Positions 9,899 to 17,166 of a DNA stretch of 35,333 nucleotides are shown piece by piece. The stretch spans positions 1 to 35,333 of the forward strand of contig JAQCBR010000033.1 of the NCBI GenBank assembly GCA_027621295.1. The letters are read 5' to 3'. Source of the stretch: Planctomycetota bacterium. Its GTDB lineage: Bacteria; Planctomycetota; UBA1135; UBA2386. Under the pieces are notes generated by a model. The model had not been told where the DNA came from. It worked only from the letters and a program-made list of their open reading frames with translations, and searched no databases. Position 1 is the stretch's first letter, and each line of letters opens with the position of its first letter. Position numbers and translations under genes: made by a program.

Positions 9899-11188
9899 AT
9901 GCGCGCCGCCGCCTTCGCCCTGCTCCTCGCCGTCCCGCTCGCAGCCCAGGCCCCGGCCGACACCGACCGCTGGATGGACGAGCGGATCGGCTCGCTCACC
10001 GAGCTCTACCAGCACCTGCACCGGAACCCCGAGCTCTCGTTCCGGGAGGTGAAGACCGCGGCGCGCATCGCCGATGAACTCGCCGCTGCCGGCCTCACGG
10101 TGACGCGCAACGTCGGCGGCCTCGGCGTCGTCGGCGTGCTGGAGAACGGCGACGGCCCGACAGTTCTGCTGCGCGCCGACCTCGACGGACTGCCGGTCGG
10201 CGAACAGACCGGGCTCCCCTACCAGTCGTCGATCCGCACCGAGTCCGACGACGGGCGGGTCGCGGGCATCATGCACGCGTGCGGTCACGACGTGCACATG
10301 ACGCACCTCGTCGCCGTCGCGCAGTGGCTCGCCGACCACCGCGACGCGTGGCGCGGGACCGTCGTCTGCATCGGTCAGCCCGCCGAGGAGCGCAGCGGCG
10401 GAGCCAAGCAGATGCTCGACGATGGGCTGTTCACGCGCTTCCCGAAGCCGGACTTCGCGCTGGCCCTCCACGTCAGCGGAAACCTCGAGGCCGGAACCGT
10501 CGGCTACCGAGCTGGTCCCTCGATGGCGAACGTCGAGTCCGTCGACATCACGATCCGCGGGCGCGGCGGGCACGGCGCGGCACCACACACGGCGATCGAC
10601 CCGGTCGTCATCGCCGCCCGCCTGATCCTCGACCTGCAGACGATCCCGTCGCGGGAGCTGAACCCGATCGACCCGGCCGTGATCACCGTTGGCTCGATCC
10701 ACGGCGGGTCCAAGCACAACATCATCGACGGCGAGTGCCGCCTACAGCTGACGATCCGCAGCTACTCCCAGCAGGTGCACGAGACGATCCGCGCCGGCAT
10801 CCGCCGCAAGGCCGAGGCCGCCGCCGCGTCCGCCGGAGCAGGAGCCCCGACGATCGAGTTCACCGAGTTCACGCCAGCGCTGGTCAACGACACGGCGCTC
10901 GCCGACCGGTGCGCGGACGCCTTCCGCACGGCGCTCGGCGCGGAACGCGTCGTCGAGGTCCCGGCAGAGATGATCGCCGAGGACTTCGGACGCTTCGGCG
11001 AGGCGGGTGTGCCGATCCTCATGTATCGCCTCGGAACCGTCTCCGCCGAACGGCTCGCCGCCGCAGCCGCGGCGGGGCTGCCTCCGCCAGGGCTCCACTC
11101 GGCCCATTACTACCCGGACTTCGAGCCGTCGATCCGGACCGCCGTCGTCGCGACCACCGCGGCGCTGGCGCGCCTCATGCCGCGCTGA
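9899..11188 (+). CDS. Exported M20D-family amidohydrolase
   Basis: 429-residue metal-dependent amidohydrolase of the hippuricase/IAA-amino-acid hydrolase group (peptidase M20D), which removes N-acyl groups from amino acids or similar amides. Residues 1-18 form a signal peptide (hydrophobic AAAFALLLAVPL ending AAQA), so the enzyme is probably periplasmic, unlike most cytoplasmic relatives. Metal-binding signatures are ADLDGLP (93-99), HACGHD (126-131, with the family's Cys ligand C128) and QPAEE (160-164). The dimerisation region includes GRGGHGAAPH, and the C-terminal GLHSAHYYPDF supplies the last His. The stop lies 7 nt before the start of the DNA methyltransferase, which could make them cotranscribed although they share no obvious function. 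The substrate is unknown. Confidence 0.92.
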   Translation: MRAAAFALLLAVPLAAQAPADTDRWMDERIGSLTELYQHLHRNPELSFREVKTAARIADELAAAGLTVTRNVGGLGVVGVLENGDGPTVLLRADLDGLPVGEQTGLPYQSSIRTESDDGRVAGIMHACGHDVHMTHLVAVAQWLADHRDAWRGTVVCIGQPAEERSGGAKQMLDDGLFTRFPKPDFALALHVSGNLEAGTVGYRAGPSMANVESVDITIRGRGGHGAAPHTAIDPVVIAARLILDLQTIPSRELNPIDPAVITVGSIHGGSKHNIIDGECRLQLTIRSYSQQVHETIRAGIRRKAEAAAASAGAGAPTIEFTEFTPALVNDTALADRCADAFRTALGAERVVEVPAEMIAEDFGRFGEAGVPILMYRLGTVSAERLAAAAAAGLPPPGLHSAHYYPDFEPSIRTAVVATTAALARLMPR

Positions 11189-11195
11189 GGCCGGC

Positions 11196-13442
11196 GTGGC
11201 GAGACTCCTGGACCCCGTCCGCGCGTGGGCCGCGATCGACGCGTGCCCGACCGCGGTGCTCGCGGCAGCGAGCCGGGAGCTGGCTCGGGCGCGAGGCCTC
11301 CCCGTGGAGCGGGTCGGCCGCTTCGCATCGGCGCCGGAGACCGAGCGAACCAGCGGTCTGCCCCCGCTCCGCGACCCGCTGGACCTGGGCCGCCTCCACG
11401 AGGCGCAGATGGTCGACGCACGGGGTCGCAAGTCTGCGGGCGCCTTCTACACGCCGGAGGATCTGGCCGGGGAGCTGGCACGAGTCACGCTGTTCCCACT
11501 CCTCGAACGCACGCGCGGCGAGGCACTGCCTCGCATCGCTGACCCGTCCTGCGGCGCCGGCAGTTTCCTGGTGCAGGCCGTCCGCTTGCTTCGGTCCGCG
11601 ATGCCTGCGGCCGATGCGGCGCAGATCGTCGCCTGCGTGCACGGAGCCGACCTCGACCCCGTCGCCGTCGCCCTGTGTGCGGACTCGGTCTGGATCGAAC
11701 TCGGCAACCCGGACCTCGATCCGGACCGCGTGCTCGCGCAGCTGCGCTGTGGGGACGCGCTGGTCGACACCGCGCTGCCGGGGGCTCCCGACGGGTGGCG
11801 GCCGGTCGACTGGGCCGAGATCGCGCCCGATGGATTCGACGCAATCCTGGGCAACCCCCCCTGGGACCGAGACGAGCCCGATCCCAGGGCGTTCTTCAGC
11901 TCGTTCGATCCCGGTTATCCGAAGCTCGTCGGCGCCGAGGCGGCACGAGCTCGGACGCGCATCCTCGATGCGCATCCGGGAGCTGCCGCCCAGTGGGGCG
12001 AGACGCTTCGGTTCCTCGACGCGCGCCAGGCGGCGCTGCGCGAGCGCTTCCCCGGCAGCGCGTCCGCGACCAAGACCAACGCATACCAGCGCTTCCTCGC
12101 GCTCGGGCTCGAACGGCTCGCGGAGCGTGGGCGGATCGGCTTCCTGGTCCCGGCCGGCTTCTACGCCGATCGAGGGTCCGCGGGCCTGCGCGACGAGTTG
12201 TTCGGCGAGCACCACGTCGAGCGGCTCGTGGGCTTCGACAACCGAGGCCGACTGTTCCCGGGCGTCGACCGGAGGTTCAAGTTCGCGGCGCTGGTCGCCG
12301 ACCGCGGCCGGAGGGATGCCCCCACGCAGTTCGGCTTCCTACGGACTCGGGCTGCAGACATGGCGACAGGCACGCTCCTCGATACCGATCGCGTCCGGCG
12401 CCTGAGTCCGTCCAGCGGCGCCGTGCTCGAGATCGACGATCCGCGGGACCTGGACCTCCTCACCCGACTGACCGAGCGCGCCAGGCTCGGCGGTACAGAC
12501 TGGGCGATCCGCTTCCGACGCGAGATCGACCTGACCCTCGACCGAAGCCTGTTCGTGCCCGCGGAGGCCCGGCGCGCGGACGACCTCCCGGTCTGGGAGG
12601 GTCGGATGATCGACGCTTTCTGCGCGACCGCGAAGCGCTGGGTCTCCGGCACCGGCCGCCGGGCCCGGTGGACTACGCCCAGCGATCTGCGTGCCATGCC
12701 TGGACCCCAGTTCCATGTGCGGGCCGACGCTCTCGACGCGATCGATCCGGATCACGCGGCGCCGAAGATCGGCTTCATGGCGGTCGGCTCGGCGACGAAC
12801 GCGCGCACGATGGCCGCGACGCTGCTCTGGCGCGCTCCGTGCGGCAACTCGGTCCCCACGCTGCGCTGCCGGTCGAAGGACGACGGCACTCCAGGGGAGT
12901 CCGCGCTCTGCGCGATCCTGAACTCCTCGGTCTTCGACTGGGCGCTGCGGCTCCGGATGGCCGGCAACAACCTCAACCGCTTCGTGCTGATCGACGTCGC
13001 GGTTCCCCCGCCCGGGAGCGTGTTCGGGATCGAGGGACTCGACGCGGCGGTCGAAGCCCTCGCGCTGACGTCCGCGTGGTTCGACCCGCTCCGGGCACGC
13101 TCCGCGCAAGGCAGTCCGATCCCGTCCCCTCTCCTCGACGGCGATGCACGTCGACGCGTCCGCGCGGCGCTCGACGCGGTCATCGCCCAGGCCTACGGCC
13201 TCGGCATCGACGAATACGCGCACGTGCTCGCCGGAACCGACCTGCCGAGCGCGCGCCTGACCCCTGCAGCGGTCGCCAGGCATCCGCTCCCCGCCAAGGG
13301 TTTCTGGCGCATCGATCGCGAACTCCCGCCGACCGAACGACTGCCCGCACTGGCGCTCGCGGCGTTCCGACGTCTCGATGCGGGAGTGCCCCCGGCGGAG
13401 CTGTTGGCTGCCACTTCGCAGCGGACGACCGTTCGCGGATGA
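11196..13442 (+). CDS. Eco57I-like adenine-N6 DNA methyltransferase (no endonuclease seen)
   Basis: 748-residue SAM-dependent DNA methyltransferase of the gamma class (Eco57I/type IIG-like). Motif X is GAFYTP (82-87), motif I DPSCGAGSF (116-124), motif II around GADLDP (150-155) and catalytic motif IV NPPW (220-223), the signature for N6-adenine. The C-terminal half (about 430-680) probably includes the target-recognition domain; NSSVFDWALRLRMAGNNLNRF resembles the conserved end of such proteins. I see no PD-(D/E)XK nuclease motif in the 80-residue N-terminus, and the length is less than that of bifunctional type IIG enzymes. GTG 11196 is preceded by GAGG; the frame opens upstream, but only inside the M20 gene. 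No restriction endonuclease, helicase or BREX/DISARM gene is nearby. The stop overlaps the start of the UGA-containing gene (ATGA). Confidence 0.87.
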   Translation: MARLLDPVRAWAAIDACPTAVLAAASRELARARGLPVERVGRFASAPETERTSGLPPLRDPLDLGRLHEAQMVDARGRKSAGAFYTPEDLAGELARVTLFPLLERTRGEALPRIADPSCGAGSFLVQAVRLLRSAMPAADAAQIVACVHGADLDPVAVALCADSVWIELGNPDLDPDRVLAQLRCGDALVDTALPGAPDGWRPVDWAEIAPDGFDAILGNPPWDRDEPDPRAFFSSFDPGYPKLVGAEAARARTRILDAHPGAAAQWGETLRFLDARQAALRERFPGSASATKTNAYQRFLALGLERLAERGRIGFLVPAGFYADRGSAGLRDELFGEHHVERLVGFDNRGRLFPGVDRRFKFAALVADRGRRDAPTQFGFLRTRAADMATGTLLDTDRVRRLSPSSGAVLEIDDPRDLDLLTRLTERARLGGTDWAIRFRREIDLTLDRSLFVPAEARRADDLPVWEGRMIDAFCATAKRWVSGTGRRARWTTPSDLRAMPGPQFHVRADALDAIDPDHAAPKIGFMAVGSATNARTMAATLLWRAPCGNSVPTLRCRSKDDGTPGESALCAILNSSVFDWALRLRMAGNNLNRFVLIDVAVPPPGSVFGIEGLDAAVEALALTSAWFDPLRARSAQGSPIPSPLLDGDARRRVRAALDAVIAQAYGLGIDEYAHVLAGTDLPSARLTPAAVARHPLPAKGFWRIDRELPPTERLPALALAAFRRLDAGVPPAELLAATSQRTTVRG

Positions 13443-13810
13443 TGCCTCCGATGGATGACCAGGTGACCAGCGGCGATCCGATCGTCATCGCCGAGGGCGG
13501 TGTCCGCGCGATGCAGGAGCTCTGCGATGCGCTCCGCGCCAGGGGCGTCGAAGCAGCGCTGACCCGGCCGCCGGGCGGCTGCGTGACCGGCTGAGGCACG
13601 AAGGCGAGGCTCGCGGTCGCGCGCCACCAGCTGCCCGAGGCCCTCGCAGGCTTGAAGCAACACCAGGAGCTCGGCCTGACGGCCACCGAGCTTGCGGCCG
13701 CACATGCCGTCGTCGACTTCGATGCGGCGGAGACCGACTGCCCGGCTTGCGGCACGCGCTTCGCGACCACGGCGACGCGCTGTCCGGACTGCGGCCTGAA
13801 CTTCGGCTGA
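13439..13810 (+). CDS. Candidate selenoprotein: small alpha/beta domain plus zinc ribbon, in-frame UGA
   Basis: Read through the TGA at 13592-13594, this gene gives 123 residues with Sec at 52. Before the TGA it shows a beta-alpha-beta pattern (DPIVIAE, a helix AMQELCDALRARG, EAALTRPP) and then GGCVTG-U-GTKARLAVA, making a Cys-x-x-x-Sec motif. After it come a beta-alpha unit (ARLAVARHQLPEALAGL), a helix, and a zinc ribbon with CPAC and CPDC pairs ending GLNFG. The topology is loosely like DUF2007; I do not recognise the family. The 71 codons after the TGA have about 89 percent G or C at third positions, and their first 19 codons contain no ATG or GTG, so one gene is more likely than two. ATG 13439 overlaps the methyltransferase stop (ATGA); ATG 13442 or 13451 are alternatives. 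A SECIS-like hairpin follows the TGA. The alternatives are a nonsense mutation, a base error (TGC or TGT would give Cys), or a pseudogene. Confidence 0.7.
13595..13635 (+). promoter_or_regulatory. Candidate bacterial SECIS element
   Basis: Directly after the in-frame UGA, GGCA (13595-13598) can pair with TGCC (13632-13635). Inside, GGC (13608-13610) pairs with GCC (13623-13625), a U-C mismatch follows (13611/13622), then CGC (13612-13614) pairs with GCG (13619-13621) around the apical loop GGUC (13615-13618). The loop starts 20 nt after the UGA. Known bacterial SECIS elements place a G-initiated apical loop about 16-37 nt after UGA; E. coli fdhF has a GGUC-containing loop at about the same distance. 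In this GC-rich DNA short stems are common, so the loop sequence and spacing carry most of the weight. Confidence 0.55.
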
Positions 13811-15337: not shown

Positions 15338-15913
15338 TCAGTTCTTGGCGCCTTCGTCCGGCACGAAGCGCAGCGCCACGGAGTTCATGCAGTAGCGCTG
15401 GCCGGTGAACTCCTGCGGCCCGTCGTCGAACACGTGGCCGAGGTGCGCATCGCAGCGCGAGCAGCGGACCTCGGTCCGGATCATCCCGTGGCTGACGTCC
15501 TCGATGTAGCGGACCCGATCGCCGGCCGCCGTCTTGTAGAAGCTCGGCCAGCCGCAGTGGGAGTCGTACTTGGTGTCGGACCGGAACAGCTCCAGGTCAC
15601 AGCACACGCAGCGGTAGCTGCCCTTGGCCTTGTTGTGGAGGTACTCGCCCGTGCCCGGACGCTCGGTTCCGGCCTGCCGGGTGATGTAGTACTGCTCGGG
15701 CGTGAGCTGTGCGCGCCACTCCGCGTCGGACTTCACGATGCGTTCCATCGCGGGATCGGGGGTCGATTCGTCCTGCATCACTTCCTCTGCGGGGTCTCCG
15801 TCCTGGGTGGCGGCCGGCTCGCTCGCAGCGATCGGCGCCGGAGACTCGCCAGGCTCCGGGGTGCAGCACGCGACGAGAAGGGACGCGAGGATCCAGACGG
15901 AGAATCGCTTCAT
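15338..15913 (-). CDS. msrB: Peptide-methionine (R)-S-oxide reductase, lipoprotein form
   Basis: 191-residue methionine sulfoxide reductase B that reduces methionine-R-sulfoxide in proteins. It has a lipoprotein signal (MKRFSVWILASLLVAC, lipidated C16), so it acts in the periplasm or at an outer leaflet, after an Ala/Glu/Pro-rich spacer of about 40 residues. The MsrB domain (about 62-187) contains the two zinc CxxC pairs C102/C105 and C151/C154, the core SHCGWPSF (118-125), HLGHVFDDGP (157-166) and catalytic C175 in RYCMNS. The catalytic residue is a normal Cys, not Sec. ATG 15911-15913 is preferred to longer frames because it starts the signal peptide. It is divergent from the endonuclease/phosphatase-fold lipoprotein across 119 nt. 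It needs an electron donor (thioredoxin-like) not found in the window. Confidence 0.95.
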   Translation of the reverse strand: MKRFSVWILASLLVACCTPEPGESPAPIAASEPAATQDGDPAEEVMQDESTPDPAMERIVKSDAEWRAQLTPEQYYITRQAGTERPGTGEYLHNKAKGSYRCVCCDLELFRSDTKYDSHCGWPSFYKTAAGDRVRYIEDVSHGMIRTEVRCSRCDAHLGHVFDDGPQEFTGQRYCMNSVALRFVPDEGAKN

Positions 15914-16032
15914 GGGGATCGGTCCGGTCGGTCGGGGTGTGGCCGGCGCAAGGGATAGGACATGATGCCGCCCGGCGCCAGCGCGCCCCTGCCGTGGGGC
16001 GGGGACCGACGAATCCCGGGACGGAATCCTCC

Positions 16033-17166
16033 ATGCGCACTTCGATTCTCGCGCTGACCTCGGCAGCCTTCCTGGGCTGCGCGGGGCCGGCATCGACCGT
16101 CCGGGTCGCGACCTACAACGTCGCGCTGAACCGGAACGCCCAGGGAGCGCTCGTCGCCGAGCTCGAGGCCGGCAGCTCGGCCGCCACGGCGATCGCCGCG
16201 GTGGTGCGTGCCGTCGACGCCGACGTCATCCTGCTCCAGGAGGTCGACCGCGATCCCGACGGTCGGGCACCGGAGCTGCTCCGCGACCGCTACCTGGAAC
16301 CGTCGCCGGGCCGCGCGCCCTACGCGTTCCTCTTCGCTGGCGCGTCGAACACCGGCGAGCCCTCCGGGCAGGACCTGGACGGCAACGGCGAGATCGGGGG
16401 GCCAGGGGATGCCTACGGCTACGGCGCGCACCCGGGCCAGTACGGGATGGCGCTCCTGTCCCGGTTCCCGATCCTCGAGGCGGACATTCGCACGTTCCGG
16501 CGACTGCCTTGGCAGGCGATGCCGGGCAACCGAATGCCCGAGGGCTTCTTCGACGCGGACGCCGCGGCAGCGATGCGACTCTCGTCCAAGTCGCACTGGG
16601 ATGTCCCCGTCCAGCTCCCCGACGGACGCGTGCTGCACATCCTCGCCAGCCACCCGACGCCTCCGGTCTTCGATGGCCCCGAGGACCGCAACGGTCGGCG
16701 CAACCACGACGAGATCCGCTTCTGGGCCGATTACCTGAGCCCGGAGCGCTCCGACTGGATCGTCGACGACCGGGGCCGACGAGGTGGACTCGAGGCAGGC
16801 GCGCTCTTCGCCGTGCTGGGCGACCTCAACTGCGATCCGCACGACGGCGACGGGCTCGACGCGCCGATCGGACTGCTGCTCGCACACCCGCGCATCGATG
16901 GTTCGATCGTTCCCGTCAGCGACGGGGGAGCCGACGCGAGCGCGGGTCAGGGCGGCGTGAACGCGAGCCACCGTGGACCGCCGGAGGCGGACACATCCGA
17001 CTTCGACGACGCGCGGGGGCCCGGCAATCTGCGACTGGACTACGTGCTGCCCGCGCGCGGCCTCGAAGTCCTGGGCGCGGCCGTCCTCTGGCCACTGCCC
17101 GGAAGCCCGCTGGCGGAGGCTGCGTCGGCCTCGGACCACAGGCTGGTCTACGTGGACATCCGTTAG
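16033..17166 (+). CDS. Endonuclease/exonuclease/phosphatase-fold lipoprotein
   Basis: 377-residue protein with a lipobox near its start (LTSAAFLGC, C16) and an endonuclease/exonuclease/phosphatase (DNase I-like) fold. Family signatures: VRVATYNVALN (about 23-33), the metal-binding Glu in VILLQEVDRD, LFAVLGDLNCDPHDGD (Asp-x-Asn), and C-terminal LRLDYVLPA with ASDHRLVYVDI (the catalytic SDH). It contains the acidic insert GQDLDGNGEIGG, which looks like an EF-hand-like or calcium-binding loop. Relatives hydrolyse phosphodiester bonds in nucleic acids, sugar or inositol phosphates; many exported versions in Planctomycetota and Myxococcota are uncharacterised, so substrate is unknown. Its stop is 14 nt from the stop of the convergent M1 peptidase. 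Confidence 0.85.
   Translation: MRTSILALTSAAFLGCAGPASTVRVATYNVALNRNAQGALVAELEAGSSAATAIAAVVRAVDADVILLQEVDRDPDGRAPELLRDRYLEPSPGRAPYAFLFAGASNTGEPSGQDLDGNGEIGGPGDAYGYGAHPGQYGMALLSRFPILEADIRTFRRLPWQAMPGNRMPEGFFDADAAAAMRLSSKSHWDVPVQLPDGRVLHILASHPTPPVFDGPEDRNGRRNHDEIRFWADYLSPERSDWIVDDRGRRGGLEAGALFAVLGDLNCDPHDGDGLDAPIGLLLAHPRIDGSIVPVSDGGADASAGQGGVNASHRGPPEADTSDFDDARGPGNLRLDYVLPARGLEVLGAAVLWPLPGSPLAEAASASDHRLVYVDIR

Follow-up and report, generated by a model that had tools for sequence, protein, structure and literature searches.

The closest described system is selenoprotein DG, which was found as 'hypothetical protein DG' by deep-Sep in Desulfosediminicola (Xiao and Zhang, 2025; PMC12013277). It is missing from the 2022 selenoprotein list (PMC9312934), was catalogued in a 2026 review with the motif GUxG (PMC13188914) and is represented in NCBIfam by NF049953, 'zinc ribbon-containing (seleno)protein DG'. 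A more remote relative is PF11823, Se_S_carrier (DUF3343), which has been proposed as a Se/S carrier (PMC5322559). The gene described here lies in a 35,333-nucleotide stretch of Planctomycetota DNA (the window). We consider, with a probability of roughly 0.9, that it encodes a selenoprotein of about 120 residues from a single-ribbon DG subfamily, in which an in-frame UGA would be decoded by SelB with the aid of a SECIS hairpin and a Sec-bearing domain would be followed by a zinc ribbon, carrier or relay chemistry being the likeliest. The features concerned are the following.

13439 to 13810, plus strand: selenoprotein DG-like gene, putative single-ribbon subfamily; start candidates ATG 13439, 13442 and 13451; overlaps the stop of the upstream methyltransferase gene
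13592 to 13594, plus strand: UGA codon, putatively selenocysteine; the same column has UGA in 46 members, Cys in distant homologues and UGG in eight
13608 to 13625, plus strand: candidate bacterial SECIS hairpin GGCUCGC-GGUC-GCGCGCC; loop at 13615-13618, 20 nt past the UGA; one U-C mismatch
13478 to 13690, plus strand: N-terminal alpha/beta domain, ferredoxin/PII-like in the predicted model, and with a relation to PF11823; Sec in the loop between strands 2 and 3
13739 to 13798, plus strand: C-terminal zinc ribbon CPACGTRFATTATRCPDCGL; its CPxC and CxxC cysteines are invariant in the family
11007 to 13442, plus strand: neighbouring Eco57I/N6 DNA methyltransferase gene; overlaps the start of the selenoprotein gene; not conserved next to most homologues

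The reading frame and its relation to selenoprotein DG

Re-reading of the frame, which comprises 123 residues and terminates at TGA 13808-13810, bore out the initial annotation in that TGA 13592-13594 is its sole break. The read-through product is MMPPMDDQVTSGDPIVIAEGG...GGCVTG-U-GTKARLAVARHQ...CPACGTRFATTATRCPDCGLNFG. Third positions are G or C in 44 of the 51 codons before this TGA (86%) and in 63 of the 71 after it, which agrees with the 89% given earlier for the latter. The first alternative start after the TGA is TTG 13652, and the absence of ATG and GTG from the 19 codons that follow the TGA was likewise found as described. So was the zinc ribbon at the C-terminus (reported as CPxC/CPDC), which has the pattern CPAC-x10-CPDC and matches Pfam Zn_ribbon_3 with an E-value of 1e-4, under the Pfam gathering cut-off. 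As a check on chance, all TGA codons in the six frames of the window were counted; in 97 of the 548 the frame is open for at least 50 codons on the 5' side and 71 on the 3' side. Because open frames across a TGA are this common by chance in the GC-rich window, family evidence has to decide. The bare read-through is by itself little proof, and it is conservation that lifts the case beyond chance.

All 29 aligned members of the family matched NF049953. The window protein scored 79.1 bits (E 3.4e-22), under the curated cut-off of 130 bits, and the Desulfobulbus homologue scored 222 bits, over it. The window protein resembles selenoprotein DG in the Sec/Cys site, the alpha/beta domain and the C-terminal CPxC..CPxCGL ribbon. 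However, it aligns to the model only from position 54, so that the N-terminal ribbon (model positions 1-50) is missing, and the sequence upstream of the gene is that of the methyltransferase. It also differs in that it sits in the Planctomycetota, the short form being usual in the order to which the window belongs. The motif GUxG reads T-G-U-G-T-K in the window: a glycine precedes Sec, and the second residue after Sec is threonine rather than glycine. Because of the score below the cut-off and the missing N-terminal ribbon, the window protein is called a divergent single-ribbon subfamily, which by sequence is related to NF049953 rather than a full member of it. The earlier proposal of a possible new selenoprotein thus stands as regards the selenoprotein but not as regards a new family, since the 29 members match one that had already been published; what is new is the subfamily.

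Evidence for selenocysteine at the UGA codon

The genome of the window (4.6 Mb in 279 contigs) contains all four of the genes selA, selB, selC and selD, whose presence the initial annotation had proposed to check. SelA was found with 473 bits, SelD with 350 bits, its gene adjoining selA on one contig, SelB above the curated cut-off of its family, and tRNA-Sec with 80 bits and the anticodon UCA. The selD gene (G000:C134:5161-6090, L227) has an in-frame TGA in the context SSAAG-U-AAK and is a second selenoprotein gene in this genome. With selA, selB, selD and tRNA-Sec(UCA) present and selD itself containing an in-frame TGA, decoding of UGA as Sec appears to be in use here.

Homologues were found in 65 of 101 relatives, most of them with one TGA. 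In an order-wide search 109 of 154 genomes matched the family, 105 of them strongly (E below 1e-15). Exactly one in-frame TGA was present in 96 of these strong homologues; in the same column eight of the other nine have UGG and one (L011) has UGC. The column of the Sec site was read directly as UGA in 46 genomes of the order. In a scan of genome contigs from named records the window protein alone gave no match and the alignment of 29 rows was too varied, but one of six rows succeeded. The nearest homologues among these records are from Planctomycetota, and UGA at the site was also found in other families of this phylum and in Deltaproteobacteria or other Proteobacteria (L125, L127 and L138). 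Cys occupies the site in several Deltaproteobacteria, in Desulfobulbus rhabdoformis (L120), Candidatus Electrothrix (L133), Bdellovibrionales (L134) and Oligoflexia (L143), and in the Brocadia-like family f49 (APGCSTGKCGCRYLLL), which presumably has affinity with the Brocadiaceae. The f49 genomes (loci L088-L104) encode a two-ribbon form with its Cys in GCSTGKCGC. Exchange of Cys and Sec at one site across phyla is a standard mark of selenoproteins. The alignment with Cys or Sec at residue 52, which had been named as supporting evidence, was obtained, with UGA in 46 members and Cys in distant homologues.

These data bear on the possibility of an ordinary stop at the UGA, with the ribbon downstream of it being a separate gene or a remnant. 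The frequency of chance open frames across a TGA in the window and the TTG at 13652, which could start a downstream piece, would agree with that. However, the UGA stands in the same column in 46 members of many genera with coding conserved on both sides, and the Cys homologues run uninterrupted through the site, which makes an ordinary stop highly improbable.

In the family the UGA is followed by five or six codons and then by CTC GCG GTC GCG (AGC), which would form the hairpin GCUCGC-GGUC-GCGAGC; the loop lies 20 nt past the UGA, or 23 nt in four members. Of the 52 UGA members examined, every one has the GGUC loop at 20-23 nt, and none of the six stem pairs is kept in fewer than 51. The fourth pair varies between U-A and U-G, and L027, with CTT GCG GTC GCA AGT, has a two-sided change that keeps the pairing. 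The codons CTC GCG GTC GCG are invariant in the family; codon entropy at the SECIS columns is 0-0.15 bits, whereas most of the remaining conserved degenerate columns in these genes have 0.8-1.7 bits. This hairpin was found in register in no Cys homologue examined. L130 encodes the identical residues LAVAS with different codons, and L011, the sole Cys variant within the family, has lost stem pairs. Two Cys homologues, L121 (Deltaproteobacteria) and L130 (uncultured bacterium), have another possible hairpin, TGGCTG-loop-TGGCCA, 18 nt past the Cys codon, which may be chance or a remnant SECIS.

The window's own hairpin consists of 3+3 pairs around the U-C mismatch (-8.6 versus -12.9 kcal/mol) and lies within the published bSECIS limits for loop, spacing and energy (PMC13188914). 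The mismatch arises from a CGC in 13619-13625, in place of the AGC or GGC found in almost every relative. Single-sequence folding gave a local fold after the UGA no stronger than that of dinucleotide shuffles, and the loose bSECIS rule was also passed by 79% of codon-shuffled controls. As neither was convincing, codon-level conservation was used; the case for this putative SECIS stands on comparative, not energetic, evidence.

The UGA might also be read as tryptophan, through read-through or a variant code, with the eight UGG homologues showing the true residue. A Trp codon does occupy the site in these relatives, but UGA also terminates the window gene and most of the relatives' genes, distant homologues have Cys and not Trp, tRNA-Sec, selA, selB and selD are present and the SECIS is conserved. 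A tryptophan reading is therefore very hard to maintain. Insertion of Sec, as originally proposed, is strongly supported by the Sec genes, the Cys homologues and the conservation of synonymous sites in the putative SECIS, and UGA 13592-13594 almost certainly encodes Sec. It would be read by SelB with Sec-tRNASec(UCA), and the hairpin at 13608-13625, with its GGUC loop, would assist the reading.

Fold, neighbourhood and possible function

The AlphaFold model made from 29 sequences (mean pLDDT 84, pTM 0.58) shows a beta-alpha-beta-beta-alpha domain, with Sec in the loop between strands 2 and 3, followed by the ribbon. Foldseek against the PDB listed PII-like or ferredoxin-like folds, none of them significant (the best at E 0.05), and a PDB sequence search gave no convincing match. 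In the absence of a significant structural match the reading of the function leans on remote homology. The profile of the N-terminal domain matched PF11823 with an E-value of 2.5e-6 over 56 columns, and Sec falls on the Cys of its invariant Cys-Gly. With columns shuffled 60 times the best E-value was 0.0033, and the reversed profile gave 0.23. Single proteins reached 2e-4 at best and the window protein 11.6 bits, under the gathering score of 25 bits, so the apparent relation to PF11823 is remote and at the profile level only. Unlike the window protein, PF11823 has no zinc ribbon and has Cys rather than Sec. It is present in few Planctomycetota genomes and was not found in that of the window.

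Since Sec sits at the invariant Cys of DUF3343, the likeliest chemistry would be that of a selenol carrying or relaying S/Se or thiol groups, a function that we put forward tentatively. The small ferredoxin/PII-like domain would then bear Sec (Cys in other lineages) in its loop, and the CPxC...CPxC ribbon may be a structural or docking module. The main rival is a thiol/selenol peroxidase or reductase, which is quite conceivable: most selenoproteins are redox enzymes, and a Cys lies within six residues before Sec in 14 of the 46 members. However, this nearby Cys is not conserved, and neither the fold nor the domain searches matched a thioredoxin or peroxiredoxin. The Cys-x-x-x-Sec of the window protein had been suggested to be a redox or metal pair. 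This spacing occurs in only eight of the 46 UGA members, hence it is no family feature, and a Cys-x3-Sec redox pair was rejected as a family trait. The Sec machinery, the conservation of the site, the SECIS and the homology are evident from sequence; we infer the actual insertion of Sec and, tentatively, the carrier or relay function.

The gene is preceded by those of an M20 peptidase and the Eco57I/N6 methyltransferase and followed by that of a sulfatase and, on the opposite strand, that of MsrB. The latter (SelR domain; 15338-16093, minus strand) is two genes downstream. The coupling to a DNA methyltransferase that had been remarked on earlier was not substantiated: in a comparison of neighbourhoods in which shadow frames of the GC-rich DNA obscured the clusters, one other homologue only (L070 in genome G014) was found to have the methyltransferase next to it. 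Functional coupling is thus unlikely and the adjacency is probably incidental.

Relatives with UGG at the site

What was most unexpected came not from the window but from the relatives with UGG at the Sec codon. These are the loci L035, L048, L053, L055, L058, L059, L065 and L144, from genomes G004, G024, G018, G001, G015, G029, G009 and G016, respectively. In E. coli with its native tRNASec(UCA), UGG followed by a SECIS is decoded as a mixture of Sec and Trp (Xu et al., 2013; PMC3834832), and natural recoding of other codons as Sec has so far been found with matching tRNASec anticodons (PMC10778597). No report of natural decoding of UGG as Sec was found within the literature searched.

All eight UGG relatives have the SECIS hairpin with six of six pairs kept, and all eight genomes contain selA and a selD interrupted by a single in-frame TGA. 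In each of the six from which tRNA-Sec was fetched (G001, G004, G009, G015, G018 and G024) its anticodon is UCA, and none with CCA was found among these six. The combination of UGG, SECIS and tRNASec(UCA) is thus like that in E. coli, but the E. coli case is one of engineered overexpression, whereas the UGG relatives are natural genes in which such decoding is conjectural. The eight genes share 32 conserved columns of four- or six-fold degeneracy; seven of these are codon-invariant, including all four SECIS codons (P about 0.001). The UGG genes are spread over several genera. On the SelA tree, SelA alone serving as the organism marker, their genomes do not form one clade and four changes between UGA and UGG are counted; forcing them together gave a p-AU of 0.0012. 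The short gene tree has three such changes, only one of which is forced.

It is possible, if rather doubtful, that in these eight relatives SelB and the ordinary tRNASec(UCA) wobble-read UGG as Sec, mixed with Trp, under the kept SECIS, UGA and UGG being interchangeable. A natural UGG Sec codon would account for the codon always being UGG and for the persistence of the SECIS. Somewhat likelier than Sec is that the eight proteins simply contain tryptophan, the hairpin having been kept by codon bias or because the change is recent: UGA to UGG is a single step, and CTC, GCG and similar codons occur often elsewhere among the conserved columns of the UGG genes. Plain tryptophan is, however, less easily reconciled with the invariance of the four SECIS codons relative to other conserved degenerate codons, with the scatter of the UGG genes over genera and the SelA tree, and with the loss of stem pairs in L011.

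Ordinary gene calling is expected to end selenoprotein DG-like genes at the UGA. Through the present gene the newly named family reaches a large branch of the Planctomycetota, where roughly two in three genomes of the order carry it, and the tie between the Sec site and DUF3343 provides a first testable idea on the function of selenoprotein DG, that of a Se/S carrier. The UGG relatives with their intact SECIS turn the natural use of the wobble decoding seen in engineered E. coli into a directly testable question; if true, UGG would serve naturally as a selenocysteine codon in organisms whose Sec codons include UGA.
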